Assembly (NCBI RefSeq): GCF_028737205.1
Contig: NZ_JAQZAL010000014.1
Coordinates: forward strand, 62,001-126,000
Reading direction: 5' to 3'
Source: Actinomycetospora lutea
Lineage (GTDB): Bacteria > Actinomycetota > Actinomycetes > Mycobacteriales > Pseudonocardiaceae
Length of the DNA: 64,000 nt
The notes below the pieces were generated by a model that worked only from the letters and a program-made list of their open reading frames with translations, was not told the DNA's origin and did no database searches. Shown one piece after another: positions 14,939 to 49,932 of this stretch (within the stretch, counting starts at the first letter, position 1; each line of letters opens with the position of its first letter). Made by a program: the position numbers and the translations under genes.

Positions 14939-15444
14939 TCGGCGGCGATCTCGGCCAGCTCCGCCCCGGTGGCGGCGACGAGGTCGTCGGGGGTCAGCGC
15001 CATCTGCAGCCCCCGGCGGCCCGCCGAGCACCAGACGGTCCCGTGCTCGGCCACCGAGAGGTCGATCACCACGTCCAGCGCCTGCCGGGTGCCGAGCGGC
15101 GAGATGCCGCCGACGACGTAGCCGGTGAGGCGCTGGGCGGCGGTGGTGTCGGCCATCACCGCCCGCTTACCGCCCCGCGCGGCCGCGAGCGCCTTGAGGT
15201 CGAGGGTCCCCGACACCGGCACCATCGCCAGCACCGGCGTCCCGTCGACCTCGGCGACCAGGGTCTTGAGCACCCGGCGCGGGTCGAGGCCCAGCGCCTC
15301 GGCGGCCTCGGTGCCGTAGGAGACGGAGCGCAGCGGAGCTCGACCCTGCGAGGCGGCGGTCCTCCCGGGCGCGGTGTACGGGTGGGTCGTGTAGGCGATC
15401 CCGGCGTCGTCCAGGGCCGCCAGGGCCGGGGTCGATGCGGCCAC
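14935..15444 (-). CDS. ybaK: Cys-tRNA(Pro)/YbaK-type aminoacyl-tRNA deacylase
   Basis: The 169-residue protein matches YbaK/EbsC deacylases, which hydrolyse mischarged aminoacyl-tRNA. Key parts are ALDDAGIAYTTHPY near the N-terminus, EAAEALGLDPRRVLKTLVAEVDG with the conserved Lys, KRAVMAD, and GGISPLGTR. The segment between HPY and SYGTEAAEALG is longer than usual and is encoded by dispersed repeat B1. A GTG start at 15444 gives MAASTPALAAL. It is divergent from sigR, whose autoregulatory promoter lies just upstream. Its stop overlaps the end of the epoxide hydrolase fragment. Confidence 0.88.
   Translation of the reverse strand: MAASTPALAALDDAGIAYTTHPYTAPGRTAASQGRAPLRSVSYGTEAAEALGLDPRRVLKTLVAEVDGTPVLAMVPVSGTLDLKALAAARGGKRAVMADTTAAQRLTGYVVGGISPLGTRQALDVVIDLSVAEHGTVWCSAGRRGLQMALTPDDLVAATGAELAEIAAD
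15319..15353 (+). repeat. Family B dispersed repeat, copy B1 (inside ybaK, antisense)
   Basis: The plus strand contains GGAGACGGAGCGCAGCGGAG followed by CTCGACCCTGCG. ybaK reads the opposite strand here, giving an insert of roughly TAASQGRAPLRSV between conserved YbaK segments. Orientation relative to the host gene is opposite to copies B2 and B3. Confidence 0.65.
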
Positions 15445-16915: not shown

Positions 16916-18436
16916 GTGTCGACGCTCTCGAACCTGCTGGCTGCCCACACAGCGCTCTCCGGGGCCGCGGCGGCGCACCTGCAGCGCGTGGTCGCCGAGT
17001 GGCAGCTGCTCGCGGACCTGTCGTTCGCCGACTTCCTGCTGTGGGTGCGCACGCCGCAGGACACGCAGCGGAGCGGAGCTGGACTTGTCGACGGGGCCGA
17101 CCTCCTGTGCGTCGCCCAGTGCCGCCCGACGACGACGGCGACCGCTCATCCCGAGGACATGGTCGGCGTGCGCGCCTCGGCGAGCCAGCACCCGCAGCTC
17201 TACCGGGCCTTCGCCGACACCACCATGCGCCGCGAGGACCAGCCGCGCTGGCACCGGGGCCGGTCGGTGCGCCGCGAGGTGGTGCCGGTCCGGGAGCCCG
17301 GCGGGGGCGAGGTCGTCGCCGTGCTGGGACGCGACACGAACCTCGCGGCCCCCCGGGTGCCGAGCACGCTCGAGGTCTCCTACACGGCCGTGGCGGCCGA
17401 CCTGTGCCAGATGGTCGCCGACGGCACGTTCCCGACCGCCGAGGGGCGCGACGAGGGCCGTTCGTCGCCGCGGGTGGGCGACGGGCTGGTGCGGATCAGC
17501 ACGTCGGGCCGGGTGCTCTACGCGAGCCCGAACGCGGCGTCGGCGTTCCACCGCCTCGGCTGGAGCGAGGAGCTGGTCGGGGTCGACCTCGCCGCGGTGG
17601 TCCGCGAGGTCGCCGACGACGCCTTCGAGGGCGCCGAGGCGGCCGAGCACGTGCGCGGCGCGCTGGCCGGCACCCCGTCGCAGCGCGCCGAGCTCGAGGG
17701 CCACGGCGCGACGGCCGTGCTGCGGGCCCTGCCGCTGCACCCGCGCGGCGTGCCGAGCGGCGCCCTCGTGCTCGTCCGGGACGTCACCGACGTGCGCCGC
17801 CGCGACCGCGCCCTGCTCAGCAAGGACGCGACGATCCGCGAGATCCACCACCGCGTGAAGAACAACCTGCAGACCGTCGCGGCGCTCCTGCGCCTGCAGG
17901 CCCGCCGCACGCCCCACGTGGAGGCCCAGGAGGCGCTCACCGAGTCGGTGCGCCGCGTCACCTCGATCGCGCTGGTGCACGAGGCGCTGGCCGCGTCGGT
18001 GGACGAGAAGGTCGACATCGACGACGTGCTCGACCGCGTGCTGCCGATGATGAACGACGTGACCCGCCCGGGCGCGCGGGTCGCGATGCGCCGCGAGGGC
18101 GAGGTCGGCGTGCTGTCGGCGGTCATGGCGACGCCGCTGGTCATGGTGCTCACCGAGCTGGTCGCCAACGCCCTCGAGCACGGGTTCGCCGAGCGGTCCT
18201 CGGGCACCGTGGTCATCGCCGCGACCCGGACGGCCGCCCAGCTCGAGGTGGAGGTCCGCGACGACGGCCGGGGGCTGCCCGAGACGTTCTCGCTGGAGCG
18301 GGCCCCGGGTCTGGGCCTGCAGATCGTGCGCACGCTCGTCGACTCCGAGCTCGCCGGCTCCCTGCGCATCCTGCCCGGCGAGGACGCGGGCACCCGCGCG
18401 GTCCTGCGGGTGCCGCTGCAGCACCGCGGTCGCTGA
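16916..18436 (+). CDS. pdtaS: Sensor histidine kinase PdtaS
   Basis: The 506-residue soluble kinase begins STLSNLLAAHTALSG and AEWQLLADLSFADFLLWVR, the H_kinase_N (GAF-like) domain of PdtaS. A PAS domain follows (about 185-290), then a HisKA_2 dimerisation segment REIHHRVKNNLQTVAALL with the phospho-His near residue 312, and an HATPase domain (ELVANALEHGF, RDDGRGLP, GLGLQIV). PdtaS works with the antiterminator PdtaR and has been linked to metal and nitric oxide sensing in mycobacteria. GTG 16916 was chosen by that N-terminus; ATG 16886 is possible. Repeat B3 adds about 12 residues in the first domain. No pdtaR is in view. Confidence 0.88.
   Translation: MSTLSNLLAAHTALSGAAAAHLQRVVAEWQLLADLSFADFLLWVRTPQDTQRSGAGLVDGADLLCVAQCRPTTTATAHPEDMVGVRASASQHPQLYRAFADTTMRREDQPRWHRGRSVRREVVPVREPGGGEVVAVLGRDTNLAAPRVPSTLEVSYTAVAADLCQMVADGTFPTAEGRDEGRSSPRVGDGLVRISTSGRVLYASPNAASAFHRLGWSEELVGVDLAAVVREVADDAFEGAEAAEHVRGALAGTPSQRAELEGHGATAVLRALPLHPRGVPSGALVLVRDVTDVRRRDRALLSKDATIREIHHRVKNNLQTVAALLRLQARRTPHVEAQEALTESVRRVTSIALVHEALAASVDEKVDIDDVLDRVLPMMNDVTRPGARVAMRREGEVGVLSAVMATPLVMVLTELVANALEHGFAERSSGTVVIAATRTAAQLEVEVRDDGRGLPETFSLERAPGLGLQIVRTLVDSELAGSLRILPGEDAGTRAVLRVPLQHRGR
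17057..17093 (+). repeat. Family B dispersed repeat, copy B3 (inside pdtaS)
   Basis: Contains GCAGCGGAGCGGAGCTGGAC, agreeing with B1 at about 22 of 27 core positions. It is read in frame by pdtaS as roughly DTQRSGAGLVDGA between WVRTP and DLLCVAQCRP, two segments that are nearly contiguous in PdtaS homologues. Confidence 0.6.
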
Positions 18437-37037: not shown

Positions 37038-40000
37038 TCAGCCGGCGCGCGCGAGGTCGTCGTCCGGGTCGACCAGCCCGCCCTCGCCGACCGCGTCGTC
37101 GACCGTCCCCGCCCCGGCACGCCAGAGCCGGGCATAGGCGCCGTCGCGGGCGAGGAGCTCGGCGTGCGTGCCCTCCTCGAGGATCCGGCCGGCGTCGATG
37201 ACGACGATGTGGTCGGCGCGCGCGGCGGTGGCGAGCCGGTGGGCCACGACGAACGTGGTGCGCGGCGCCGCCAGGCGCTCGCCCGCCGCCAGCACCGCGC
37301 CCTCGGTGGACGGGTCGAGCGCGGCGGTGGCCTCGTCGAGCAGGAGCAGCCGCGGGTCGACGAGCTCGGCGCGCGCCAGGGCGACGAGCTGGCGCTGCCC
37401 GGCCGACAGGCCGCCGCCGCGCTCGCCGACGGGCTGACGGAAGCCCCCGGGCAGCGAGGCGATCATCTCGAGCGCCCCGACGTCGCGGGCGGCCTGCTCG
37501 ATGCGGGCCGGGGTGGCCTCGGGGTCGCCGTAGGCGATGTTGGTCGCGACGTCGCCGACGAACAGGTGCGCCTCCTGCGGCACGACGCCCAGGCGACGGT
37601 GCAGCGTCGGCAGGTCGTGCTCGCGGACGTCGACGCCGTCGATCAGCACGCTGCCCGAGGAGGCGTCGTAGAACCGGGCGACGAGCTTGACCACCGTCGA
37701 CTTCCCCGCGCCCGTGGCCCCGACCAGCGCGACCGTCTGCCCCGCCGGCACGTGCAGCGAGAAGTCGGCGAGGGCCGGGGTCTCGGCGCCGGCGTAGGAG
37801 AAGCCGACGTCGCGCAGCTCGACCTCGCCGCGCAGGTCGTCGACCACGACCGGGTGCTCCGGGGCGGGCACCGAGGTCGGCGTGCGCAGCAGCTCGCCGA
37901 TGCGCAGCAGGCCGATGCGGGCCTGCTGGTAGCCGTCGAAGACCTGCGAGAGCTGCTGCACGGGCCCGAAGAACATCGCGAGGTAGAGCAGGAACGCGGC
38001 GAGGATGCCGGGGGACAGGCCGCCGGTGGCCACGCGGGCGGCGCCGACGCCGAGCACCGCGGCCTGCGCGAGGTCGGAGAGCATCGCCGCGAACGGGAAG
38101 TACGTGGCGATGAGGCGCTGGGCGCGCAGGCGGGCCCGGCGGTAGGCGTCGCTGTTGCCGGCGAAGGTGGCCGCCGAGAGCTCCTCGTGGGTGTGGGCCT
38201 GGGCGACCCGGAGCCCCGCGACGTTCTCCTGCAGGTCGGCGTTGACCACGCTGACCCGCTCGCGCGCCTCGGCGTAGGCCGCCGACGACAGGCGCCGGAA
38301 GATCACCGTGGCCACGATGAGCACGGGCATCACCGCGAGCGCGACCAGGGCGAGCTCGACGTCGGTGACCAGCAGGGCGACGGCCACGCCGATGATCGTC
38401 AGGAGCGCGACGAACGCCTGCGCGAGCCCGGTCTGCAGGAACGTCGAGAGCGCGTCGACGTCCGTGGTCATCCGCGTCATGATCCGGCCGCCGAGCTCGC
38501 GCTCGTAGAAGTCGAGGCCGAGGCGTTGGAGGTGGGCGAAGCTGCGGGTGCGCAGCAGGAAGAGCCTGCCCTCGCCGATGCGGGCGGTGAGCACGGTCTG
38601 GGCGGCGACCACGAACCAGTCGAGGGCGACCACCACCACGCCCAGCCCGACGGCGAGCCACAGCACGTCGAGCGAGCGCGCCTGGATGCCGCCGTCGACC
38701 GCGAGGCGCGCGAGCGAGGGGAACGCGACCGTGGCGGCCGCGTCGAGGCCGAGCAGCACGACGGCGAGCAGCAGGGCCCAGCGCACCGGGCGCAGGAGCT
38801 TGCCGAGGCGGAACGCGGGGTCGGGCGCGGTCGGGTCCTCGCCGTGCACATCGGGTTCCTCGGTGGCGGGCGGCAGGCGGTCGAGATGCGCGCGGATCTC
38901 CGGCGAGGCCCCGCCGTCGATCCCGCCGGCGAGCGCCTCCGACCCGGCCGCGACGGTGACGGGCGCCGGGGCGGGCACGGGCCGGTCGGGCGCGGGGTCG
39001 TCGGGCCACAGCGAGCGGGTGAAGGTCGGCGCCGCCGCGGTGTCCGGCGCGTCGTCGGGCACCCGCCCGGTCTCGTCGATCCGCCCTGTCTCGTCGATGC
39101 GTTCCGGCGGGCCCGCGAGCAGCTCGCGGAACAGGCGGCACCGGCCCTCCAGCTCCTGGCGGGTGCCCACGTCGACGACGCGGCCGCCGTCGAGGACGGC
39201 GATGCGGTCGGCGAGCGCGAGGGTGGAGCGGCGGTGGGCGATGACGACGGTGGTGCGCTGCGCGGTGACTGCGCGCAGCGTCTCGCCGATCGCGGCCTCG
39301 GTGGTGGCGTCCACCGCGGACGTCGCGTCGTCGAGGACGAGCACGCGGGGGTCGTAGAGCAGGGCGCGGGCCAGGGCGACGCGCTGGCGCTGGCCGCCCG
39401 ACAGGGTGAGCCCGCGCTCGCCGACGCGGGTGTCGTAGCCCTCCGGCAGCGCGGTGATGAACGCGTCGGCCTGCGCGGCGACCGCGGCCGCGCGGATCTG
39501 CTCCTCGGTGGCGTCCGGGCAGCCGTACGCGATGTTGGCGCGCACGGTGTCGGAGAAGAGGAACGCCTCCTCGAACACCACGCCGACCGCGTGGCGCAGC
39601 GAGTCCAGCCGCAGGTCGCGCACGTCGATCATCGATGATCCGGCTCCCCTATCGGCGTGCTCCCCTTGCTGCTCCGCGTCCGGGAGGTCGTCCGGCGGAC
39701 CGATGCGCAGCGCGCCACCCTGCACGTCGTAGAACCGGGGCGCGAGCAGCGCCACGGTCGACTTGCCCGAGCCCGAGGTGCCGACCAGCGCGACCGTCTC
39801 GCCCGGGGTGATGTCGAGCGAGAGGCCGTCGAGCACCGGCTCGCTGCGTGCATAACCGAAGCGCACGTCCTCGAGCCGCACGCCCAGCGGGCCGTCGGGC
39901 ACCGTGCGGGCGGTCGGCGCGTCGACGATCTCGGGCTGCGAGTCGATGAGCTCGTAGACGCGCTCGACCCCCGCGCGGGCGAGCTGGCCGGTGACCACGA

Positions 40001-41060
40001 GGCCCGCGACCAGCCGCGCCGGGCCGACCAGGGCGGCGATGTAGGAGGTGAACGCGATGAACACGCCCAGCGAGATCGCCCCGTCGACCGCCAGCACGCC
40101 CCCGAGCGCGAACACCACGAGCTGGCCGACGGTGGGCAGCGCGGTGAGCGTCGGGGTCAGGCGGGCGTTGAGCCACGAGGCGCGCAGGCGCTCGGCGTAG
40201 AGCCGCCGCGCCGCCTCGCGCAGCCGGCCGACCTCGCGCGTCTCCTGGCCGAAACCCTTGACCACGCGGACACCGGTGACCGTCTCCTCGACGTGCTGGG
40301 CGACCTCGGCCGCGCGCTGCTGGGCCGACCACGTCGCGGGGAACAGGCGGCGCCGCAGGCGCGCGGTGAACACGACACCGAGCGGCAGCACCACCAGCGA
40401 GACCGCCGTCAGCAGCGGCGACAGGAACAGCATGATCGTGATCGACACGACGAGCTGGCCGACCGTGCCCGCCACCAGCGGCACCATGCCGAGCAGGCCC
40501 TGGACCTGCTGGAGGTCGGAGTTGGCGCGCGAGACCACCTGGCCGGTGCGCAGCGCGTCCTGCTTCGGGCCGTCGAGGCGCGAGACCGAACCGAACACGC
40601 GGCGCCGCAGGTCGTGCTGCACCCCCAGCGAGAGCCGCCCGCCGAGGTAGCGGCGCAGGAACGCCGCGCCGAAGCGGACCACGGCGATGGCCGCCATCGC
40701 GCCGACCAGCCACCCGAGCCCGTCGGTGGACCCGGCGACGGCACGGTCGACCGCCGTGCCGACGAGCAGGGGGCCGACGGCCTCGAGGCTGACCCCGAAC
40801 ACCGAGGCGGTGAGGGCGGCGACCGACAGCGCCCGGTGGCGCCAACAGTCGCGGGCGAGACGCCGGACCCACCCCTGTGGGCGACGTCGATGGTCCGGCT
40901 CGCCTCTCGGCGTGCTCCCCCCTCTGCTACGCGTTCTGTCGGCCGACGCAGACGTGCGCTCCGTGGTGCCCTCCGGGTGGTGGTGGTGAGGCGATCCGCT
41001 CCAGATTAGGACCGCCCCCCGACACCCCGCCGTGCGCGGCGACCCGGACGTGACGCACAC
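37038..41060 (-). CDS. Fused double ABC exporter (two TMD-NBD halves in one chain)
   Basis: The roughly 1300-residue protein joins two complete half-exporters. The first half has six helices, then an NBD with GTSGSGKST, LSGGQRQRVALARAL and VLVLDDATSAVDATTE; the second half repeats this with GATGAGKST, LSAGQRQLVALARAE and LLLLDEATAALD. In NBD1 the catalytic Glu after Walker B is Asp, so ATP hydrolysis is probably asymmetric, as in heterodimeric multidrug exporters. Repeat A1 enlarges NBD1 and A2 lies in the N-terminal tail. No ATG, GTG or TTG occurs in frame between GTG 41060 and the first helix, and a candidate promoter lies downstream of that GTG, so the start is doubtful. Confidence 0.82.
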   Translation of the reverse strand: MCVTSGSPRTAGCRGAVLIWSGSPHHHHPEGTTERTSASADRTRSRGGSTPRGEPDHRRRPQGWVRRLARDCWRHRALSVAALTASVFGVSLEAVGPLLVGTAVDRAVAGSTDGLGWLVGAMAAIAVVRFGAAFLRRYLGGRLSLGVQHDLRRRVFGSVSRLDGPKQDALRTGQVVSRANSDLQQVQGLLGMVPLVAGTVGQLVVSITIMLFLSPLLTAVSLVVLPLGVVFTARLRRRLFPATWSAQQRAAEVAQHVEETVTGVRVVKGFGQETREVGRLREAARRLYAERLRASWLNARLTPTLTALPTVGQLVVFALGGVLAVDGAISLGVFIAFTSYIAALVGPARLVAGLVVTGQLARAGVERVYELIDSQPEIVDAPTARTVPDGPLGVRLEDVRFGYARSEPVLDGLSLDITPGETVALVGTSGSGKSTVALLAPRFYDVQGGALRIGPPDDLPDAEQQGEHADRGAGSSMIDVRDLRLDSLRHAVGVVFEEAFLFSDTVRANIAYGCPDATEEQIRAAAVAAQADAFITALPEGYDTRVGERGLTLSGGQRQRVALARALLYDPRVLVLDDATSAVDATTEAAIGETLRAVTAQRTTVVIAHRRSTLALADRIAVLDGGRVVDVGTRQELEGRCRLFRELLAGPPERIDETGRIDETGRVPDDAPDTAAAPTFTRSLWPDDPAPDRPVPAPAPVTVAAGSEALAGGIDGGASPEIRAHLDRLPPATEEPDVHGEDPTAPDPAFRLGKLLRPVRWALLLAVVLLGLDAAATVAFPSLARLAVDGGIQARSLDVLWLAVGLGVVVVALDWFVVAAQTVLTARIGEGRLFLLRTRSFAHLQRLGLDFYERELGGRIMTRMTTDVDALSTFLQTGLAQAFVALLTIIGVAVALLVTDVELALVALAVMPVLIVATVIFRRLSSAAYAEARERVSVVNADLQENVAGLRVAQAHTHEELSAATFAGNSDAYRRARLRAQRLIATYFPFAAMLSDLAQAAVLGVGAARVATGGLSPGILAAFLLYLAMFFGPVQQLSQVFDGYQQARIGLLRIGELLRTPTSVPAPEHPVVVDDLRGEVELRDVGFSYAGAETPALADFSLHVPAGQTVALVGATGAGKSTVVKLVARFYDASSGSVLIDGVDVREHDLPTLHRRLGVVPQEAHLFVGDVATNIAYGDPEATPARIEQAARDVGALEMIASLPGGFRQPVGERGGGLSAGQRQLVALARAELVDPRLLLLDEATAALDPSTEGAVLAAGERLAAPRTTFVVAHRLATAARADHIVVIDAGRILEEGTHAELLARDGAYARLWRAGAGTVDDAVGEGGLVDPDDDLARAG
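39622..39679 (-). repeat. Family A dispersed repeat, copy A1 (inside ABC exporter NBD1)
   Basis: On the minus strand it contains GGGGAGCACGCCGATAGGG then GAGCCGGATCATCGA. It agrees with A2 over about 50 bases apart from a 7-base duplication (CATCGAT) and roughly eight mismatches. Read in frame it inserts about 18 residues (EQQGEHADRGAGSSM and neighbours) between GPPDD and DVRDLRLDSLR. Confidence 0.75.
40883..40935 (-). repeat. Family A dispersed repeat, copy A2 (N-terminal tail of ABC exporter)
   Basis: Minus strand: CGCGTAGCAG, then GGGGGGAGCACGCCGAGAGG and CGAGCCGGACCATCGACGT. It is translated in a different frame from A1 (GGSTPRGEPDHRR), so the similarity is at DNA level, not from a repeated protein domain. 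Confidence 0.75.
41003..41008 (-). promoter_or_regulatory. Candidate -10 element of ABC exporter gene
   Basis: TAATCT within CTAATCTGGA on the minus strand, the same 10 bases as before kgd. If used, transcription would start near 40996, downstream of the only upstream in-frame start codon. Confidence 0.35.
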
Positions 41061-41297
41061 CCGCCCCCGTGGTCCAATGCACGCGTGCAGCACTTCCTCC
41101 TCGGCCCCCTGTGGGAGAGCCGTCGTGCGCACCTGTTCGACCAGCGGTGTCGCCGGGCCTGACGAGACGGGTCGCGTGCCATCCCGGCCGCGACGTCCCT
41201 CGCCCGCGCACCGCACCGCACCGCCCTCCCGAGGACCGGCTACCGACGGCCGGTGACGTGCGTGCGCGGACGCCCGCACCCCCGGAGGACGAGTTCC

Positions 41298-41909
41298 GTG
41301 ACCGCCCTGGTCGACCAGCCCGTGCACGCTCCTGCCAGCCCGTTCACCCGTCCCCGCTCGCGGCGCCCCGACCTGCGGCGCTGGCAGGACGGCCCGACCC
41401 CGGCCAGCCTCGCCGACCTGCTCGCGCTCACCCGTGAGGTGGCCGCCGAGGTCGACGCCGGCCGGCACGCGGTCGAGGTCGACCCCGTCCAGCGCTGGTC
41501 GCGGCGCCTGCACGCCGACCCGCACCTCGACGTCTGGCTCATCTCCTGGGCCACCGACCAGGCCGCCGAGCTCCACGACCACGGCGGGTCGATCGGCGCG
41601 CTGACCGTGGTGCGCGGCGCGCTGACCGAGTGGCGCTGGACCGCGGGCAGCGACGACGACGGCACGTGCCCTGCCGAGGAGCTGCCCGCCCGCGGCCCCG
41701 GCCTGCGCCGCCGGGCGCTCGCCCCCGGCCGGTCCGTCGCGTTCGGGCTCGGCCACGTGCACGACGTCTCCAACCGCGCGGCCGAGACCGCGGTCAGCGT
41801 GCACGCCTACTCGCCGCCGCTGTCGGCCATGTCGTACTACGGGGTCCGGGCCGGCGTGCTGCACCGGACCCGCTCGGAGCTCGTCGCACCGGGAGCATCG
41901 CCGGAGTGA
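41298..41909 (+). CDS. Cysteine dioxygenase family protein
   Basis: The 203-residue cupin resembles bacterial cysteine dioxygenases, which oxidise cysteine to cysteine sulfinate with iron and oxygen. The iron ligands fit HDHGGS (two His) in AELHDHGGSIGALTVVRGAL and the later His in GLGHVHDVSN. The N-terminal helical part LADLLALTREVAAEV is typical of actinobacterial members. GTG 41298 follows GGAGG. Its stop overlaps the rhodanese start (GTGA), so sulfur oxidation and sulfur transfer are coupled. Confidence 0.88.
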   Translation: MTALVDQPVHAPASPFTRPRSRRPDLRRWQDGPTPASLADLLALTREVAAEVDAGRHAVEVDPVQRWSRRLHADPHLDVWLISWATDQAAELHDHGGSIGALTVVRGALTEWRWTAGSDDDGTCPAEELPARGPGLRRRALAPGRSVAFGLGHVHDVSNRAAETAVSVHAYSPPLSAMSYYGVRAGVLHRTRSELVAPGASPE

Positions 41910-42316
41910 GCACCATCGACGACCTCCTCGCCGCCGCCCGGGCCCGGCTGCGGCGCCTCGAGCCCGCCGAGGCCGCCGCGGCGCTCGCCGACGGCGCACG
42001 GCTGGTGGACATCCGCCCCGGCTGGCAGCGCCTCGACGAGGGCACGGTGCCGGGCGCCCTGGTGATCGAGCGCAATCACCTCGAGTGGCGCCTCGACCCC
42101 GCCTCCGACGCCCGCGTCGCCGAGGTCACCGACCACGACCAGCAGTGGATCGTGCTGTGCTCCGAGGGCTACACGTCCTCCCTCGCCGCCGCGGCCCTCC
42201 AGGACCTCGGCCTGCACCGGGCCACCGACGTCGTCGGCGGGTTCCGCGCCTGGGCGGCGGCGGGCCTGGACACCGCGCCGGGGTCGGACGACCGTCCGGA
42301 GTACGCCCGGCCTTGA
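41906..42316 (+). CDS. Rhodanese-domain sulfurtransferase
   Basis: The 136-residue single-domain rhodanese shows LVDIRPGWQR, GTVPGALVIERNHLEWRL and the active-site loop VLCSEGYTSSLAA with the catalytic Cys. It would carry sulfane sulfur as a persulfide. It is translationally coupled to the cysteine dioxygenase gene, a pairing common in actinobacteria, and presumably handles sulfur released in cysteine breakdown. Confidence 0.9.
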   Translation: MSTIDDLLAAARARLRRLEPAEAAAALADGARLVDIRPGWQRLDEGTVPGALVIERNHLEWRLDPASDARVAEVTDHDQQWIVLCSEGYTSSLAAAALQDLGLHRATDVVGGFRAWAAAGLDTAPGSDDRPEYARP

Positions 42317-42349
42317 CACCATGGGGCCTCCCGACCCGGACGGAGGCCC

Positions 42350-43085
42350 ATGGTGACCGCAGGGCTCGACGAGCGGCTCCCCGGCGTGGTCGCGCTCTAC
42401 CGCGACCTGCACGCGCACCCCGAGCTCGCGTTCGCCGAGCACCGCACCGCGGCGCTCCTGGCCGACCGGCTGCGCGCGATCGGGCTCGAGGTCACCACCG
42501 GCGTCGGGGGCACCGGCGTGGTCGGGCTGCTGCACAACGGCCCCGGGCCGCGTGTGCTGCTGCGGGCGGACATGGACGGCCTCCCGGTGGCCGAGGTCGA
42601 CGCCGTGCCCCACCGCAGCCGCGACACCGCCGTCGACGCGGACGGCGTCACCGTGCCGGTGATGCACGCCTGCGGGCACCGCGGCGTCGGGCGCCCCGCA
42701 GGAACCCGTGATCGCCCCGCTGACCGACTTCCCGCTGCTGGTCAACGACGTCGAGGCCACCGAGCGGGTGCGGGCGGCGTTCGCGGCGCGCTTCGGCGAC
42801 ACGGACGTGCACGAGGCGCCGCGCCGGTCGGGCAGCGAGGACTTCGGGTGCTTCGGCGAGGCCGCCGGCGTGCCCTCGGTGTTCTGGAACCTCGGGGCGC
42901 TCGACCCCGGGCTCTTCGCCGACGACCCCGGGCACCCCGAGGCGGCGGTCGTGAGCGGGCGCGCCCCGGGCGTGCACTCGCCGCACTTCGTGCCCACCGC
43001 TCCGGACGCCCTGCTGCGCCGGGGCGTCGAGGCGGTGCTGGCGGCCGCGGGGTGCTGGCTGGGGGTCAGCCCGGGCTCTCGGTGA
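42350..43085 (+). pseudogene. M20-family amidohydrolase gene with internal frameshifting deletion
   Basis: The first 112 codons read as a normal M20D amidohydrolase: LYRDLHAHPELAFAEHRTAA, RVLLRADMDGLPV and VPVMHACGH, the start of the metal-binding HACGHD. Immediately after, the frame turns to nonsense, while the next frame picks up ASGAPQEP and TDFPLLVNDVEATERV, RRSGSEDFG, VPSVFWNLGALDP and HSPHFVPTAPDALLRRG, the last third of the same family. The middle, with the dimerisation domain and further metal ligands, is gone. The breakpoint lies at about 42680-42690. No active enzyme can be made. Confidence 0.87.
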
Positions 43086-43134
43086 CGTGACGGCCCAGCG
43101 CCGCGCGGAAGGCCTCGGGCGACTGCGGCGTCAC
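43066..43134 (-). pseudogene. Probable flavin reductase N-terminal remnant
   Basis: From GTG 43134 the minus strand reads MTPQSPEAFRAALGRHVT, the usual opening of flavin reductase-domain proteins (which continue GVTVVT), then ESPG and a stop. It abuts the C-terminus of the broken M20 gene. Only 22 codons remain, so this is a tentative call from a short match. Between here and 43244 the plus strand also holds an unrecognised C-terminal-looking stretch ending DPDRDSRTGA at 43227. Confidence 0.45.
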
Positions 43135-43244
43135 GAGCGCACCGACGTCACCCGCATGCCCGAGCGCGCGGCGCTGGTGGCCGCGCTCGTCACGGATCCG
43201 GACCGGGACTCCCGCACCGGCGCCTGAGGCGCGATGATCCGGGT

Positions 43245-44915
43245 GTGGACGCGCCCGAGACCTGGATCACCCCGCTCACGCCGCTGGCCTTCCTGCGCCG
43301 CTCCGCGGACGTGTATCCCGACAAGACGGCGATCGTGCACGGCGCCGAGCGGATGTCCTACGCGCAGTTCGCCGCGGAGGCCCAGCGCCTGGCCCGCGCG
43401 CTGCGCGCGAGCGGGATCGGGCCGGGCGACCGTGTGGCGTGCCTGCTGCCCAACGTGCCGCCGATGCTCGTCGCGCACTTCGGGGTGCCGCTGGCCGGCG
43501 CGGTGCTCGTCGCGGTGAACACGCGCCTGTCCAGCGAGGAGGTCCGCTACATCCTCGACCACTCGCAGGCCAGCGTGCTGGTGGTCGACTCGGCGCTGCG
43601 GGGCACCGTCGAGCCGATCGCGGGCTCGCTGGAGACCGTGCGCGAGATCGTCAACCTGGTCGACCCGCAGGGCCCGGACGCCGGGGCGTCGGTGGACGGC
43701 ACGAGCTGGGACGACCTGCTGGCCCGGGGCGGCGAATCAGGGGAGCACGCCGATGGGGAGGACCTGGCGTGGGAGGTCGCCGACGAGCGTTCCACGATCA
43801 GCATCAACTACACGAGCGGCACCACCGGGCGGCCCAAGGGCGTCCAGTACCACCACCGCGGCGCGTACCTGAACTCGTTCGGCGAGATCGTGCACAGCTA
43901 CCACGACCCGTCGACGGTCTATCTGTGGACGCTGCCGATGTTCCACTGCAACGGCTGGTGCACCCCCTGGGCGATCACCGCGATCGGCGGGACCCACGTC
44001 TGCCTGCGCGAGGTGCGCGGCGACGCGATCTGGGCGCTCATCGGCGAGCACCGGGTCACCCACCTCAACGGCGCGCCCACCGTCGTCACCACGATCATGA
44101 ACGCGGCCGAGGCGCGGACGCTGGACTACGCGCTGGTCGTGACCACCGCCGGTGCGCCGCCGAGCCCCACGACCATCCTCGAGATGGAGAAGATGGGCTT
44201 CCGGATCGTGCACGTCTACGGGCTCACCGAGACCTACGGGCCGTACTCGGTGTGCCAGTGGCAGGAGGAGTGGCGCGGGCTCGAGGAGCACGCGCGGGCG
44301 AAGCTGCAGGCGCGCCAGGGCGTCGGGATGCTGCAGTGCGAGCCGCTGCGGGTGGTCGAGACGCTCGGCGAGGACGTCGCCGACTGGGCCTCGGTGCAGC
44401 TCGTCGACGTGCCCCACGACGGCGAGACCATGGGCGAGATCGTCATGCGCGGCAACAACGTCATGTCCGGCTACTTCCGCGACCCCGACGCGACGGCCAA
44501 GGCGTTCGCCGGCGGCTGGTACCACTCGGGCGACCTGGGGGTCATGCACCCGGACGGCTACGTCGAACTGCGCGACCGCGCCAAGGACGTCGTCATCTCC
44601 GGCGGCGAGAACATCTCCACCGTCGAGGTCGAGCAGGCCGTGCTCTCGCACCCCGCGGTGCTCGAGGCGGCGGTGGTCGGCGTCCCCGACGAGCAGTGGG
44701 GCGAGCGGCCGAAGGCGTTCGTCGTCCTGCGCCAGGGGCAGTCCGCGGAGCCCGGGGCCATCATCGACCACGTCAAGGGCGCCATCGCGCGCTACAAGGC
44801 ACCTCGCGACGTCGAGATCGTCGAGGACCTGCCGAAGACCTCGACCGGCAAGATCCAGAAGTTCGAGCTCCGGGCCAAGGAGTGGGGCGACGCGACCACC
44901 CGCATCCGGGGCTGA
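43245..44915 (+). CDS. Acyl-CoA synthetase (AMP-dependent ligase, FadD-like)
   Basis: The 556-residue enzyme has all ANL-family motifs: YTSGTTGRPKGV (P-loop), LPMFHCNGWC, GLTETYGP, YHSGDLGVMHPDGY, DRAKDVVISGGENIS and the C-terminal catalytic Lys in TSTGKIQKF. It activates a carboxylic acid as acyl-AMP then acyl-CoA. The sequence is closest to medium/long-chain FadD proteins that share FHCNGW. The loop before the P-loop (GESGEHADGEDLAW) is encoded by repeat copy A3. The GTG start gives MDAPETWITPLTPL. No neighbouring beta-oxidation genes are present. Confidence 0.9.
   Translation: MDAPETWITPLTPLAFLRRSADVYPDKTAIVHGAERMSYAQFAAEAQRLARALRASGIGPGDRVACLLPNVPPMLVAHFGVPLAGAVLVAVNTRLSSEEVRYILDHSQASVLVVDSALRGTVEPIAGSLETVREIVNLVDPQGPDAGASVDGTSWDDLLARGGESGEHADGEDLAWEVADERSTISINYTSGTTGRPKGVQYHHRGAYLNSFGEIVHSYHDPSTVYLWTLPMFHCNGWCTPWAITAIGGTHVCLREVRGDAIWALIGEHRVTHLNGAPTVVTTIMNAAEARTLDYALVVTTAGAPPSPTTILEMEKMGFRIVHVYGLTETYGPYSVCQWQEEWRGLEEHARAKLQARQGVGMLQCEPLRVVETLGEDVADWASVQLVDVPHDGETMGEIVMRGNNVMSGYFRDPDATAKAFAGGWYHSGDLGVMHPDGYVELRDRAKDVVISGGENISTVEVEQAVLSHPAVLEAAVVGVPDEQWGERPKAFVVLRQGQSAEPGAIIDHVKGAIARYKAPRDVEIVEDLPKTSTGKIQKFELRAKEWGDATTRIRG
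43731..43762 (+). repeat. Family A dispersed repeat, copy A3 (inside acyl-CoA synthetase)
   Basis: AGGGGAGCACGCCGATGGGG differs from the A1 core by one missing base. It is read in frame as SGEHADGED in a variable loop of the ligase, the same GEHAD reading as A1. Confidence 0.6.
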
Positions 44916-45024
44916 GCCTCTCGTCGCGCCCGACCCGCGCCGGGGCATGACGGGCCCCGGTGACGGGAAGGGCAGCGGGACGGCGGAGACTGTCCGCCGC
45001 TGTCGCGGTGAGGAGCGAGGACGC

Positions 45025-45576
45025 GTGAGCGAGGAGTCCGTCGAACGGGGCGAGGCCGTCCTGGACAACGACATGACGAGCCTGGACACCGAGCCGTCGG
45101 TGATCCTGGACGAGGACCGCCTGGACGCCGATCCGCTCGAGGACGGCATGGACACCCCGGAGGGCTACAGCCGGGACGTCCGCCTCGGCGGCACCCAGGA
45201 GTGGGAGAGCGAGCCGCCCAGCATCGACTACCGCCTGCCGCAGGAGGAGCCCGAGGCCACGGCCGAGCAGCCGCCGGACCGGCCCCTGGCGGCGACGCCG
45301 ATCGACGAGCTCGACGAGTCGGTCGACGACCCGGAGAACGCCGTCGACGGCGTGGGCGGGGCGGTCCTGCTGGACGCCGAGGGCGCCGACGGCGTCACCG
45401 AGGCCGAGAGCCTCGCCGAGGAGGCGCGCGAGATCGAGCTCGGTGTGTCCTCGGCGGACGGCAGCGTCGAGCCGACCGGACTGCCGAGCGACGACGCGAT
45501 CGGCGAGGTCGCGGCCATCGACAACGAGCCGGGCTCCGCGGAGGAGCAGGCGATGCGCGTGGAGCAGGAGAACTGA
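45025..45576 (+). CDS. DUF5709 family acidic protein
   Basis: The 183-residue, very acidic protein contains DPLEDGMDTPEGYS and QEWESEPPSIDYRLPQEEP, which I recognise as the DUF5709 family of actinobacteria; the C-terminal half holds DDAIGEVAAIDNEPGSAEEQAM. It is probably disordered and cytoplasmic. GTG 45025 after GAGG is preferred; ATG 44947 would add an Arg-rich leader. Function unknown. Confidence 0.72.
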   Translation: MSEESVERGEAVLDNDMTSLDTEPSVILDEDRLDADPLEDGMDTPEGYSRDVRLGGTQEWESEPPSIDYRLPQEEPEATAEQPPDRPLAATPIDELDESVDDPENAVDGVGGAVLLDAEGADGVTEAESLAEEAREIELGVSSADGSVEPTGLPSDDAIGEVAAIDNEPGSAEEQAMRVEQEN

Positions 45577-45602
45577 GCGCCGGGGGGACGGCGCGCCCGG
45601 CC

Positions 45603-46142
45603 GTGCCGCGACGGGTCGTGGTCGCCGGCACGGTCGTGGGCGCCGTCCTCGTGGTGCTCCTCGCCGGCGCGCTGATGGGCGGCTGGCGCCCGTTCACCCC
45701 GGCCCCCGACGTCCTGACGTTCGGGCCCGGCGGCGACCTCGAGCAGTACACGCTGTTCGAGGGCCAGTGCGCCCGCGGGCAGCTGGCGGTCGGCGGCGGC
45801 TTCGGGCCGGAGGCCGACGCGCAGTGCGGCACGCCCCACGACGTCGAGGTCGTCGCGTCGACCGCGCCGATCGGCGAGGGCCGCGCGGTGTCGTACCCGG
45901 GCGAGGGCGCGCTGGCGGACTTCGGGCGCGCCTACTGCGCGATGTACGTCGACTCCGACCTGCTCGTCGCGGAGTCGGGCGGCGTCGCCCGCGACGACCT
46001 GCGCATGACCGCCGTCGTGCCGAGCCGGGCGGCCTTCGCCGACCCGGGCTCGGCGGGCGCCACGCGCGGCGGCCGGGAGGTCAGCTGCGTCATCTCGCGC
46101 AGTGACGGCGAGGCGCTGACCGACCGCTTCTCGGTCATCTGA
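45603..46142 (+). CDS. Membrane-anchored protein with septum-formation-like domain
   Basis: The 179-residue protein has one N-terminal membrane helix (VVVAGTVVGAVLVVLLAGALM) and an exported domain with four cysteines. The pattern EGQCARGQLAV ... AQCGTPHDVEVVAS resembles the septum formation domain (C ... C-x2-PH-x-E-V) of actinobacterial envelope proteins. Disulfides are likely. It starts 26 bases after the DUF5709 stop. The domain call is by pattern and moderately secure; a role in division is only suggested by the family name. Confidence 0.65.
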   Translation: MPRRVVVAGTVVGAVLVVLLAGALMGGWRPFTPAPDVLTFGPGGDLEQYTLFEGQCARGQLAVGGGFGPEADAQCGTPHDVEVVASTAPIGEGRAVSYPGEGALADFGRAYCAMYVDSDLLVAESGGVARDDLRMTAVVPSRAAFADPGSAGATRGGREVSCVISRSDGEALTDRFSVI

Positions 46143-46224
46143 GCGGCGGGGGGCCGAACGGCGCAGTCACTCGCAGCGCCGGACCTATTGCCCTGTGTGA
46201 GTGTGGCCGTGACCATACTTCACC

Positions 46225-47580
46225 ATGAGCACACTTCCCGCCGGAGTCGACCGTCGGGCGCTCAAGCGCCGGGCCGTCGTCGCGAGCACCGTCGGCACCA
46301 CCATCGAGTGGTACGACTTCTTCCTCTACAACACCGCCGCCGCCCTGGTCTTCGGGCCGCTGTTCTTCGCCGACTCCGAGGCCGGCGGCGTGCTCCTGGC
46401 GTTCTCCACCCAGTTCGTGGGCTTCGCCGCCCGCCCGATCGGCGCGGCGATCTTCGGGCACTACGGCGACCGCATCGGTCGCAAGTACAGCCTCGTCGCG
46501 ACGCTCCTGCTCATGGGCGGGGCGACGGTGCTCATCGGCTGCCTGCCCACCTACGCCTCGATCGGCGTGCTCGCCCCGATCCTGCTGACCCTGCTGCGCG
46601 TGCTGCAGGGCATCGGCGTCGGCGGCGAGTGGGGCGGCTCGGTGCTCATGTCGATGGAGTGGGGCCACCGGCGCCAGCGCGGGCTGATGGCGGCGTGGCC
46701 GCAGGCCGGCGTGCCGATCGGGCTCGCCCTCGGCACCTTCGTGGTGTGGCAGTTCTCCGGCCCGGAGTTCCTCGAGTGGGGCTGGCGCGTGCCGTTCATC
46801 GCCAGCGTGGTGCTCATCGGGATCGGGCTGTGGGTGCGGCTTACCGTGCTCGAGTCGCCGGCGTTCGCGCAGGTCAAGACATCCGGCAAGGTCGCCAAGC
46901 TGCCGCTGGCCGAGACCCTGCGCACCCAGTGGCGCGACGTGCTCAAGGCGATGTTCGTCCGCACCGCCGAGCAGGCGCCGTTCTACATCTTCACCTCGTT
47001 CGTGCTCGCCTACGGCACCCAGCAGCTCGACCTGGAACGCAGCGACCTGCTGCTCTACCTCATCCTCGCCGCGTGCCTGGGCATCATCAGCGTGCCGTTC
47101 TTCGGCTGGCTCTCCGACGTGCTGGGCCGACGGCTGGTGTACGGCATCGGCGTGGTGCTCACGGGGCTCTACGCCTTCCCCTACTTCGCCCTGCTCAACA
47201 CGAAGGTGGGCGGGCTGATCCTGCTGGGGATCATCCTCGGGCTGATCTTCCACGACATGATGTACGGGCCGCAGGCGGCGCTGATCTCCGAGAGCTTCGG
47301 CACCGGCATCCGCTACACCGGCGCGGGGCTGGGCTACCAGCTCGCCTCGATCACCGCGGGCGGGCCGGCGCCGCTGATCGCGACCGCGATCCTGGCCGGG
47401 ACGGGCTCCACCACCTGGATCTCGATCTACATCATCATCTGCGCGGTGGTCTCGATGATCGCGCTGCTGATGATGCACCCGCGCCCGCCGGAGGCCGACG
47501 AGGCCGACCTGGCGTCCGAGGACCAGGCCGGCCAGGAGGCAATCGAGGACGCGGCGCGCTCGGAGCGCTCGCGGAGCTGA
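46225..47580 (+). CDS. MFS metabolite:proton symporter (MHS family, ProP-like)
   Basis: The 451-residue transporter has 12 predicted helices and the MHS features: GTTIEWYDFFLYN at the N-terminus, GHYGDRIGRKYSL (the loop 2-3 signature), RVLQGIGVGGEWGGSVLM and WLSDVLGRR. Family members import proline, betaine, citrate, ketoglutarate or shikimate with protons. The substrate is not readable. The short C-terminal tail is Glu/Asp then Arg/Ser-rich. It stands between unrelated genes and is followed after 18 bases by the kinase-like gene. Confidence 0.9.
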   Translation: MSTLPAGVDRRALKRRAVVASTVGTTIEWYDFFLYNTAAALVFGPLFFADSEAGGVLLAFSTQFVGFAARPIGAAIFGHYGDRIGRKYSLVATLLLMGGATVLIGCLPTYASIGVLAPILLTLLRVLQGIGVGGEWGGSVLMSMEWGHRRQRGLMAAWPQAGVPIGLALGTFVVWQFSGPEFLEWGWRVPFIASVVLIGIGLWVRLTVLESPAFAQVKTSGKVAKLPLAETLRTQWRDVLKAMFVRTAEQAPFYIFTSFVLAYGTQQLDLERSDLLLYLILAACLGIISVPFFGWLSDVLGRRLVYGIGVVLTGLYAFPYFALLNTKVGGLILLGIILGLIFHDMMYGPQAALISESFGTGIRYTGAGLGYQLASITAGGPAPLIATAILAGTGSTTWISIYIIICAVVSMIALLMMHPRPPEADEADLASEDQAGQEAIEDAARSERSRS

Positions 47581-47598
47581 CGCGCATGATGGTGGGCG

Positions 47599-48222
47599 AT
47601 GCCGATCCGCCCGCTCACCCCCGCCGCGCTCGCCGACGAGATCGTCGCCGCCGTCGAGCGGGCCGGTCCCGGGCACGTCCGGGTGCTGGTCGACGGTGCG
47701 CCGCCGGCCCGCCCGGAGGTGCTCGCGGACGCGCTCGTCGACCCGCTGCGCGTGCGCTCCCGGCCCGTCGTGCGGGTGTCGGCGTGGGACTTCCTGCGCC
47801 CGGCGTCGGTGCGCCTCGAGCGCGGGCGCACCGACCCGGACTCGTTCTACGACGACTGGCTCGACGCGGGCGCGCTGGTCCGCGAGGTGCTCGCCCCGCT
47901 CGGCCCCGGCGGCAGCGGGCAGGTGCTGCCCCGGCTCTGGGACGTCGCCGTCGACCGGGCGGCGCGGGCGGAGCGCCTCGCGGTCCCGGCGGGCGGCATC
48001 GTCGTGGTGGACGGCCCCCTGCTGCTCGGGCGCGGTCTGCCGGCCGAGCTCGCCGTGCACCTCGCCCTGTCCGAGACCGTGCTGGCGCGCCGCACCCCCG
48101 CCGACGAGGCCTGGACGCTGCCCGCGTACGCGCGCTACGCCACGGAAGTCGACCCGGTGACCGTCGCCGACCTCGTCGTCCGCGCCGACCACCCCGACCG
48201 CCCGGCCCTTCAGACGGCCTGA
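47599..48222 (+). CDS. Uridine kinase-like protein lacking a P-loop
   Basis: The 207-residue protein has the overall order of actinobacterial uridine kinase-like proteins: VRVLVDGAPPARPEVLADAL, VSAWDFLRPASVRLERG, DSFYDDWLDAGALVREVL and IVVVDGPLLLG. In the first element the Walker A motif (GxxxxGKT) expected after VDG is replaced by APPARPE, with no Gly-Lys-Ser/Thr. Phosphate binding in the usual way is therefore unlikely; it may be a pseudokinase or a ligand-binding relative. It follows the MFS gene by 18 bases. Confidence 0.72.
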   Translation: MPIRPLTPAALADEIVAAVERAGPGHVRVLVDGAPPARPEVLADALVDPLRVRSRPVVRVSAWDFLRPASVRLERGRTDPDSFYDDWLDAGALVREVLAPLGPGGSGQVLPRLWDVAVDRAARAERLAVPAGGIVVVDGPLLLGRGLPAELAVHLALSETVLARRTPADEAWTLPAYARYATEVDPVTVADLVVRADHPDRPALQTA

Positions 48223-48231
48223 TCCCGTACG

Positions 48232-48248
48232 AGCGATGCGGCATCGCT
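48232..48248. terminator. Hairpin between convergent kinase-like and monooxygenase genes
   Basis: AGCGATGC and GCATCGCT flank a single G, 9 bases after the stop of the kinase-like gene. Confidence 0.5.
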
Positions 48249-48259
48249 GGCAATTCAAC

Positions 48260-48286
48260 ACAGCACGCCGATAGGGCCAGGATCAC
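48260..48286 (+). repeat. Family A dispersed repeat, copy A4 (intergenic)
   Basis: AGCACGCCGATAGGG followed by CCAGGATCA matches the A1 core and, after a small gap, its GGATCA end. This is the only A copy outside a gene. Confidence 0.5.
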
Positions 48287-48318
48287 CACATCCTCGCGGC
48301 GCGACACGCCGAGGGAGC

Positions 48319-49932
48319 TCAGGCGGCCCGGCGCCGCGCCCGCAGCGCGAACCCCGGGTAGCCGGCCTGCGCCTCGGCGTCGCACATCTCCCGGTAGCGG
48401 GCGAACCCGCCGGCGTAGGGCAGGAACACGCGCGGCTTGCCCGGCACGTTCGCGCCGAGGTACCAGGAGCTCGCCGCCTGCGGCAGCAGCGTCGCGTCCG
48501 CGGCCTCGCGGACGTGGTCGGCCCACCGGGCCTGGGCCTCGGGCGTCGGCTCGGCGTCGAGGTCGTGGGCCCGCAGGTGCCCGAGGAGGTCGGCGATCCA
48601 GTCGACGTGCTGCTCGATCGAGGTCGGCATGTTGGTCAGCACCGACGGGCTGCCCGGCCCGGTGATCGTGAACAGGTTCGGGAAGCCGGCCACGCCGAGC
48701 CCCAGGTAGGTCGCCGCGCCCTCGGACCAGGCCTCGGTGAGGGCGAGGCCGTCGCGGCCGCGGAGGCCCAGCCGCAGCAGCGGCCCGGACAGCGCGTCGA
48801 AGCCGGTGGCGAACACGAGGACGTCGAGCGGGTGCTCGGCGCCCGAGGCCAGCCGCACGCCGCCCGGCGTGATCTGCGCGATCGGGTCGGCGCGCACGTC
48901 GACCAGGGACACGTTCGCCCGGTTGTAGGTCTCGAAGTAGTCGGTGTCGATCGGCGGGCGCTTGGTGGCGAACGGGTGATCGTGCGGGGTCAGCACCGCG
49001 GCGACGGCCGGGTCGTCGACGGTCTCGTGGATCTTCGACCGGATGAAGTCCGACGCCGTCTCGTTGACCTCCGGGTCGGCGAGCACGTCGCGCACCGCCG
49101 CGCGGAAGCGCAGCCCGCCGCGCTCCCAGGCGCGCTCGAAGAGGGCGCGGCGCTCGTCGTCGGGCAGGGCGAGGGTGTCGACGTCGCTGACGACGAACGG
49201 GTGCCCGTTGGTCGAGGCCTGCTGGACCTCGCGGATCGCCGCGTAGTCGGCCTTGTAGCCCGCGGCCTCCTCGGCGGAGAGCGGGGCGTTGCGGGCGGGG
49301 ATGCTGAAGTTCGCGGTGCGCTGGAAGACGGTGAGGTGCCCGGCCGACGCGGCGAGCACCGGGATGGCCTGGATGCCGGTGGACCCGGTGCCGACCACCC
49401 CGACCCGGCGGCCCGTGACGTCGACGCCCTCGTGCGGCCACTGCCCGGTGTGGTGCCACTCGCCGGCGAACCCGTCGAGCCCGGGGATGTCGGGGACGTT
49501 CGCCGACGACAGGCAGCCCACCGCGGTGACCAGCCACCGGCACGTCCACCGCTCGCCGCCCTCGGTGTCGATCACCCAGCGGTCGCCGTCGTGGGCGGCC
49601 GACACGACCGTCGTCGAGAACGAGATGGAGCGCCGCAGGTCGAACCGGTCGGCCACGTGCTCGAGGTAGGAGAGGATCTCCGCCTGGCCGGGGTAGCGCT
49701 CCGACCAGTCCCACTCCTGCTCGAGCTCGCGCGAGAAGGCGTAGCAGTAGTAGTAGCTCTCCGAGTCGCACCGCGCGCCGGGGTACCGGTTCCAGTACCA
49801 GGTGCCGCCGACGCCGTCCGCGGCCTCGAGCCCGTGCACGGCGAACCCCAGCCCGCGCAGGCGATGGATCGTGTAGAGCCCGGCGAACCCGGCCCCGATG
49901 ACGACGACGTCGAGATCGTTGCCCACGCTCAC
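48319..49932 (-). CDS. Flavin-containing monooxygenase, Baeyer-Villiger type
   Basis: The 537-residue enzyme has an FAD Rossmann motif GAGFAG (residues 13-18), the Baeyer-Villiger fingerprint FAGEWHHTGQWP (about 155-166, fitting FxGxxxHxxxWP) and a second NADPH motif GTGSTG near residue 178. GTWYWNRYPGARCDSESYYY is characteristic of cyclohexanone/phenylacetone-type enzymes. It should insert oxygen next to a ketone using NADPH and oxygen. The GTG at 49932 is chosen; GTG 49926 is possible. No ketone pathway genes are adjacent. Confidence 0.92.
   Translation of the reverse strand: MSVGNDLDVVVIGAGFAGLYTIHRLRGLGFAVHGLEAADGVGGTWYWNRYPGARCDSESYYYCYAFSRELEQEWDWSERYPGQAEILSYLEHVADRFDLRRSISFSTTVVSAAHDGDRWVIDTEGGERWTCRWLVTAVGCLSSANVPDIPGLDGFAGEWHHTGQWPHEGVDVTGRRVGVVGTGSTGIQAIPVLAASAGHLTVFQRTANFSIPARNAPLSAEEAAGYKADYAAIREVQQASTNGHPFVVSDVDTLALPDDERRALFERAWERGGLRFRAAVRDVLADPEVNETASDFIRSKIHETVDDPAVAAVLTPHDHPFATKRPPIDTDYFETYNRANVSLVDVRADPIAQITPGGVRLASGAEHPLDVLVFATGFDALSGPLLRLGLRGRDGLALTEAWSEGAATYLGLGVAGFPNLFTITGPGSPSVLTNMPTSIEQHVDWIADLLGHLRAHDLDAEPTPEAQARWADHVREAADATLLPQAASSWYLGANVPGKPRVFLPYAGGFARYREMCDAEAQAGYPGFALRARRRAA

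Follow-up and report, generated by a model that had tools for sequence, protein, structure and literature searches.

A micro-insert confined to Actinomycetospora that occurs in genes and within larger repeats

What is the short sequence that recurs in and around an ABC exporter gene of Actinomycetospora lutea, and is it one element or several? The window analysed here, a 64,000-nucleotide stretch of contig NZ_JAQZAL010000014.1, had been predicted to carry four copies (A1 to A4) of a single short repeat that share a core, lie within less than 9 kb, lengthen proteins, tolerate any reading frame and recall the Rickettsia palindromic elements (RPEs). The core, GGGGAGCACGCCGATAGGG, is exact in A1 (39647-39665, minus strand) and is present with two mismatches in A2 (40902-40920, minus strand) and one in A3 (43740-43758, plus strand); A4 shares only its 3' part, GCACGCCGATAGGG (48263-48276). 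A further match, with three mismatches, lies at 46557-46575, and dinucleotide shuffles of the window give an expectation of 0.03 core matches.

The whole genome (6.53 Mb in 106 contigs) contains 104 copies of the core at up to three mismatches, 28 of them exact, versus 3 for the reversed pattern; the existence of a repeat family, a claim that depended on just such a genome-wide excess, is borne out. That four copies fall in under 9 kb amounts to weak clustering, P being 0.033 for a group of this kind anywhere in the genome. At no more than one mismatch, the core was found in all 18 Actinomycetospora genomes of a 61-genome set, this genome included (3 to 57 copies each), and in none of the 43 genomes from outside the genus. 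A family-wide scan of 390 genomes again found it in 18/18 genomes of the genus, and the single matches in 2 of the 372 others are at chance level, since the reversed control gave 4 matches outside the genus in the same collection. Public sequences were scanned as well, and among the matches listed (80) there were 79 from Actinomycetospora and one from a metagenome bin, whose contig (L069, of MAG 53_S67) is the sole core-bearing record among them labelled Pseudonocardia. The core repeat is real, dispersed through the genus and confined to Actinomycetospora. Rfam gave no match to window positions 38500-49000 at E up to 1 and no match at gathering score in nine sources, and viral contigs, searched with two patterns including the exact core in case of a phage origin, contained no exact match. 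A literature search, which for the most part did not extend to subscription journals, returned no report of the core repeat or of repeats in Actinomycetospora.

As members of one family, A1 to A4 do not hold together. The core stands within recurring flanks that are unrelated to one another, and these flanks are repeat families that are also found without it. A1 and A2 are copies of a 36-bp repeat resembling the mycobacterial interspersed repetitive units (MIRUs), here Family I, filled by a micro-insert; A3 is the micro-insert alone, which we call naked; and A4 is another repeat, a hairpin, with a variant insert. The empty form of Family I reads GGGAGACGGAGC-GCAGCG-GAGCTCGACC, and in filled copies 24 nt stand in place of the middle 6, which lengthens the 36-bp unit to about 54 bp. 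Families II and III likewise exchange 6 nt for about 24, and families IV, V, VI and VIII show a net gain of 17 to 21. Families I, II, III, IV, VI and VIII all have empty copies; for family V a single one was found, and it is diverged. Table 1 gives the features of the window.

Table 1. Repeat copies and their host genes in the window (positions are those of the 64,000-nucleotide stretch).
Feature	Position	Strand	Basis or remark
Empty Family I copy, AGGAGACGGAGC-GCAGCG-GAGCTCGACC	15318..15345	+	without micro-insert
Second empty Family I copy, GGACACGCAGC-GGAGCG-GAGCTGGACT	17059..17085	+	without micro-insert
ABC exporter gene carrying A1 and A2; membrane and ATPase domains, two of each	37038..41015 (open-frame span)	-	two stretches each of Pfam PF00664 and PF00005
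A1, complete Family I repeat of 54 bp holding the micro-insert, in first nucleotide-binding domain	39634..39687	-	orthologue alignment
A2, diverged copy of Family I (about 54 bp), N-terminal part of the ABC exporter frame	40887..40940	-	orthologue alignment
AMP-binding acyl-CoA ligase gene, host of A3	43245..44915	+	Pfam PF00501, PF13193
A3, naked micro-insert, 18 bp net; protein reads GGESGEHADGED	43736..43753	+	orthologue alignment
A4, intergenic hairpin repeat (Family VIII) with variant micro-insert	48234..48314	+	empty copies, folds

The ABC exporter frame stays open through both A1 and A2, which are read in different frames of it. That the two are alike in DNA and differ in frame had been noted from the letters, and our frame check agrees with it, both being Family I copies. 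A1 had also been assigned to the first nucleotide-binding domain, and it is indeed a 54-bp insert there, with a gap of at least 54 columns at about 39634-39687 in 10 of 10 aligned congeners. A2 faces a gap of about 54 columns in the nearest congener (L186) and is seen in none of 12 aligned congeners, in a region that is poorly conserved.

Family I is itself a feature of the genus. The 27-nt body of its empty form is present in 18/18 Actinomycetospora genomes (1 to 150 copies each, some of them arrayed in tandem every 36 bp) and, at three mismatches or fewer, in 0/43 genomes from outside the genus. One genome (G014) has tandem arrays (for example C1:315405-315575), the longest with at least five 36-bp units, which are possible typing loci. 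Three states of a Family I site, with no repeat, with 36 bp and with 54 bp, can be seen between species at loci L003, L010 and L013, and less cleanly at L002. Three relatives without the repeat and one with the 36-bp form were found at both L003 and L013, and two of each at L010, where the 36-bp form is that of the nearest relative, G011; at L002 two relatives lack the repeat and a third, L343, carries a copy of the 36-bp type whose junctions are less clean, and at L008 all 4 relatives lack it. G011 has no repeat at the other four of these loci, and at L003, L013 and L002 another genome, G009, has the 36-bp form where G011 has none. We infer that Family I sites usually change by insertion and not by loss; a reverse step, the loss of 18 bp from the filled form, may also occur. 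Repeats of 5 bp flank 46 of the 98 filled copies and 20 of the 47 empty ones, a slight excess over the 36-38% of controls.

The intergenic position given for A4 is correct, and the copy lies there as a Family VIII hairpin in which 24 nt of variant micro-insert (48252-48275) replace a 7-nt loop. Empty Family VIII copies are known at L067, L122 and L130, and the interval orthologous to A4 holds an empty Family VIII hairpin in one of five aligned congeners (L189). Families II, III and VIII have the micro-insert where the empty hairpin has its loop region. Families IV and VI have it in place of a portion of one hairpin arm, and in the single representative folded for each the long stem is broken up, the fold going from -26.3 kcal/mol empty to -19.4 filled in Family IV and from -37.7 to -32.3 in Family VI.

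Naked copies show what the micro-insert does in protein genes, to which it usually adds about six amino acids that are similar from copy to copy. A3 had been taken for an insert in an acyl-CoA ligase, and the Pfam matches to its host and the lack of its in-frame 18 bp in 17/17 congeneric orthologues confirm this; unfiltered, the net length relative to these congeners is 18 in 12 of the 17, 24 in two, 28 in two and 15 in one. At this gene G011 is nearest to the present genome (92% identity). Close by, a peptidase/amidohydrolase-like ORF, identified by eye at 42350-43090, seems to be without about 530 bp at 42679 that are present in L190 (L190:1642-2175). Orthologues that are empty at the insert were found for 17 of the 18 naked gene copies examined and none for the other, L060; the prediction that the repeat lengthens proteins and is absent from orthologues is thus supported by alignment. 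Measured against the nearest empty orthologue of each of the 17 sites, the net gain is 18 in 12, 15 in 3 and 21 in 2, in a tally that admitted these three values only; unfiltered alignments agree on the majority value for most sites, with outliers at L108 (28 twice, from a misplaced alignment, and 18 once), L022 (9 once) and L085 (19 once).

The hosts identified by Pfam include Mur ligase, Mfd-type, UvrC and RarA/MgsA-type proteins, helicases, malic enzyme, methylmalonyl-CoA mutase, acyl-CoA carboxylase, deaminase and acyl-CoA dehydrogenase, among others, and several are DNA repair genes. In four hosts some relative bears something at the place of the insert, such as a decayed insert (L278), a variant one (L297) or an unrelated longer one (L300). 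The last of these, in a biotin carboxylase gene, is another repeat-like insert (a hairpin, Family VIII-like by eye) where L069 has the micro-insert. The insert of the Mfd-type gene (L020) is the same in G006 (L252), diverged in G002 (L267) and absent from the nearer G011 and four others, a pattern in which descent, loss, transfer or old polymorphism may play a part. The empty site, judged by eye, encodes Asp-Gly in 12 of 17 cases, and from this one might guess, and only guess, that the inserts are located at turns.

Frame tolerance, which had been proposed for the whole repeat, belongs to only one kind of copy. Family I copies in genes are read in several frames, antisense included. Naked copies in genes were in sense frame 0, which gives the peptide GEHADRG, in 19 of 23 cases by a first classification; the 18 naked sites above were chosen from that classification, mostly in this frame, and so are no evidence for a frame bias. 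In a second classification, in which a loose family filter counted a number of naked copies as Family I and 14 of the 31 copies scored as naked lay in no open frame of high GC3, the GEHADRG frame accounted for 14 of the 17 copies in open frames; of the other three, L151 (a candidate insertion) is in sense frame 2 and L057 and L163 are antisense. The expected rate is the 38% of CGACGG occurrences in coding tiles that have the GEHADRG orientation and phase, against which 14/17 gives P = 2.4e-4, or 1.1e-3 without two orthologous duplicates. We rejected the notion of one family read in all frames, naked and Family I copies behaving differently. The bias is probably due to purifying selection against the other frames, and a mechanism tied to the transcribed strand may also contribute.

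The sites of insertion have a motif in common. The pentamer CRRCG occurs at one fixed register in 10 of the 17 gene sites (one nearest empty orthologue per site), versus a background of 0.039 per site at other in-phase registers (P = 1.3e-10, or 6e-9 allowing for 46 registers). It is found one codon upstream in 7 of the 17, at either register in 11, and at neither in 6 (L020, L221, L085, L111, L117 and A3, the nearest empty orthologue of A3 having it at -5 and -14). Family I serves as an internal control: its filled copies are interrupted at the centre (83 copies) or 5 nt upstream (8 copies), and 37 of 49 empty copies have CRRCG at one or both of the matching places, which are 5 nt apart; 11 of the 49 have none in the body and one has it elsewhere only. 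The best target forms are CGACG and CAGCG, and the target bases are lost, not duplicated.

The inserted unit is about 20 nt long, AGGGGAGCACGCCGATAGGG, and follows a hypervariable 4-nt spacer. Our loci were gathered mainly through exact or near-exact core matches, which overstates conservation of the core; a set of 161 copies chosen by their 3' part alone gives a fairer view of the 5' part, and there conservation is 46-60% at positions -5 to -2, 89% at -1 and 93-99% at the next five core positions, which lie outside the search pattern. C never occurs at spacer position -4 in these 161 copies, though the loci hold 37% C. Between AGC and the GGGG of the core, the spacer of central Family I copies is exactly 5 nt in 82 of 86. 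Because of this sharp boundary of conservation and this constancy, we conclude that a variable spacer of near-fixed length precedes a unit of about 20 nt.

The observations to be accounted for are the filled and empty alleles, the target preference, the near-fixed boundaries, the restriction to the genus and the frame bias. The explanation that we favour, and consider rather probable, is a non-autonomous micro-element, a unit of about 20 nt behind a 4-nt spacer, that is copied preferentially to CRRCG and replaces about 6 nt by about 24. Such an element would be copied to many sites in Actinomycetospora chromosomes, best of all to CGACG or CAGCG, each insertion giving a net gain of 18 bp (range about 15 to 21). 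It would enter older and larger repeats, so converting the 36-bp form of Family I to 54 bp, and would enter protein genes, where it would persist at Asp-Gly-like sites of housekeeping enzymes, mostly read in a single sense frame as GEHADRG. A putative enzyme would act in trans on the defined unit, an activity suggested by the ends: since they are nearly fixed, a defined unit moved in trans accounts for them better than accidental template switching does. Profile searches of the 18 genomes for a Y1 transposase and for the reverse transcriptase profile RVT_1 gave no enzyme that would move the micro-insert, and no donor locus was found. Other points also tell against this explanation: 6 gene sites lack CRRCG at both main registers, 11 empty Family I copies lack it in the body, the net gain varies from 17 to 21 in families IV, V, VI and VIII, the L020 insert is missing from the nearer G011, and the small size of the unit and its loss of target bases are out of the ordinary. 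More speculatively, the micro-insert could represent mobile DNA of a new class, perhaps with the smallest of all interspersed mobile units (about 20 nt plus a variable spacer of 4 nt), written preferentially into CRRCG by machinery specific to the genus that replaces about 6 bases, parasitising repeats and repeatedly adding one peptide at Asp-Gly sites; we consider this somewhat less likely than not.

Template switching or break repair at CRRCG, copying a short stretch from a dispersed copy by microhomology (CGAC-GG versus CGAT-AGGG), would need neither a dedicated enzyme nor a reverse transcriptase. In its favour, the target motif resembles the core in its 3' part, a loss of target nucleotides is also what repair produces, and one locus (L063) has a tandem pair or duplication with a 17-nt period. 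Such copying should, however, leave variable ends with donor flanks, and instead conservation falls sharply before the core and the spacer length is shared by nearly all central Family I copies, so that we regard it as unlikely. Another idea is that a larger transposon with such ends inserted at CRRCG and on excision left an 18-bp scar. The near-constant, scar-like length and the adjoining variable spacer fit this, yet in 1.83 Mb of (redundant) gathered sequence every one of 68 left halves is followed by a right half, and of 161 right halves only 2 lack the left half, those of A4 and L133, each of which has a variant in its place; even in a sample biased by having been gathered mostly through the core, this makes an excision footprint improbable.

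The remaining explanations we consider less probable still. Were the core a protein- or RNA-binding motif produced repeatedly by selection, for example as a hairpin loop, its high conservation and its replacement of the loop region in families II, III and VIII would follow, but it arrives as a block with empty orthologues and in unrelated enzymes, and the stems that it breaks up in families IV and VI, in one representative each, disfavour a conserved hairpin-loop motif. Retro-insertion of a short RNA through reverse transcription, to which we give an equally slim chance, would agree with a conserved 3' and a variable 5' end and with the sense-strand bias in genes, and the present genome has three RVT_1 matches. 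It is nevertheless one of just 4 of the 18 genus genomes with such matches (3 over the cut-off), the other 14 having none, and copies are present in all 18. Reverse transcription is thus not supported as the source, nor is a RAYT/REP system, the Y1 (IS200/IS605-type) transposase profile PF01797 matching 0/18 genus genomes and 5 of 14 control genomes.

If the micro-element does move as a defined block, it would lie at the lower end of the size range of known bacterial interspersed repeats, would not be a hairpin, and would have a target preference of its own without a Y1 transposase or a reverse transcriptase, the two kinds searched for. It would also offer many natural insertions of one peptide in housekeeping enzymes with empty orthologues for comparison, so that one could put to the test both the mechanism and how well proteins tolerate insertion.

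How, then, does it compare with known systems? Family I, with its units of 36 or 54 bp and its tandem arrays, is likened to the MIRUs by description and not by sequence (PMC2734929, PMC12548453). Coupling of a short ORF to a downstream start codon has been described for MIRUs (PMC12548453), and a minority of Family I copies may have a counterpart of it. In 13 of 98 filled Family I copies an upstream start codon opens an ORF that crosses the repeat and terminates at a TGA that shares bases with a downstream (A/G/T)TG start, versus 0.94% of random placements, and in 3 of 47 empty copies versus 0.55%, an arrangement that is enriched and found in a minority of copies; in those 13 the micro-insert keeps the ORF open and in frame. 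Family I differs in belonging to another genus, in lying also inside genes and in having a 36-bp form that is filled by a separate micro-insert.

The micro-insert itself is at or below the size of the repetitive extragenic palindromes (REPs), and loss of target bases rather than their duplication is unusual. MITEs are marked by terminal inverted repeats and target site duplication; the micro-insert loses target bases, and for Family I the flanking 5-bp repeats are slightly more frequent than in controls. With group II introns and retroelements it does not share a consistently present reverse transcriptase. REPs are described as interspersed repeats of 20-40 bp, the GTAG and CGTC types being hairpins with a tag at one end and the CGTC type having no dedicated transposase; some are in genes, many of these being replication and repair genes (PMC3733652). 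The micro-insert is similar in being small, interspersed and in part intragenic, and its target CGACG is CGTCG on the opposite strand, but it has no strong hairpin with a GTAG or CGTC tag, and CRRCG is a target and not a tag.

The likeness to RPEs that had been suggested applies in part. Like RPEs, as these are described, the micro-insert is non-autonomous, lies between and inside protein genes, is in frame and gives a conserved peptide in unrelated proteins (PMC2229807, PMC10969869); it is dispersed, lengthens proteins and is absent from orthologues. RPEs are long palindromes, from 105 to about 150 bp in size (PMC2229807, PMC10969869), whereas the micro-insert is about 20 nt, replaces target bases, often at CRRCG, also enters other repeats and folds weakly (-3.7 kcal/mol for the 24-mer and -0.2 for the A4 variant). 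In genes, then, the micro-insert works like an RPE, and by its lack of a long palindrome and of a Y1 transposase it falls outside the definitions of both RPEs and REPs.
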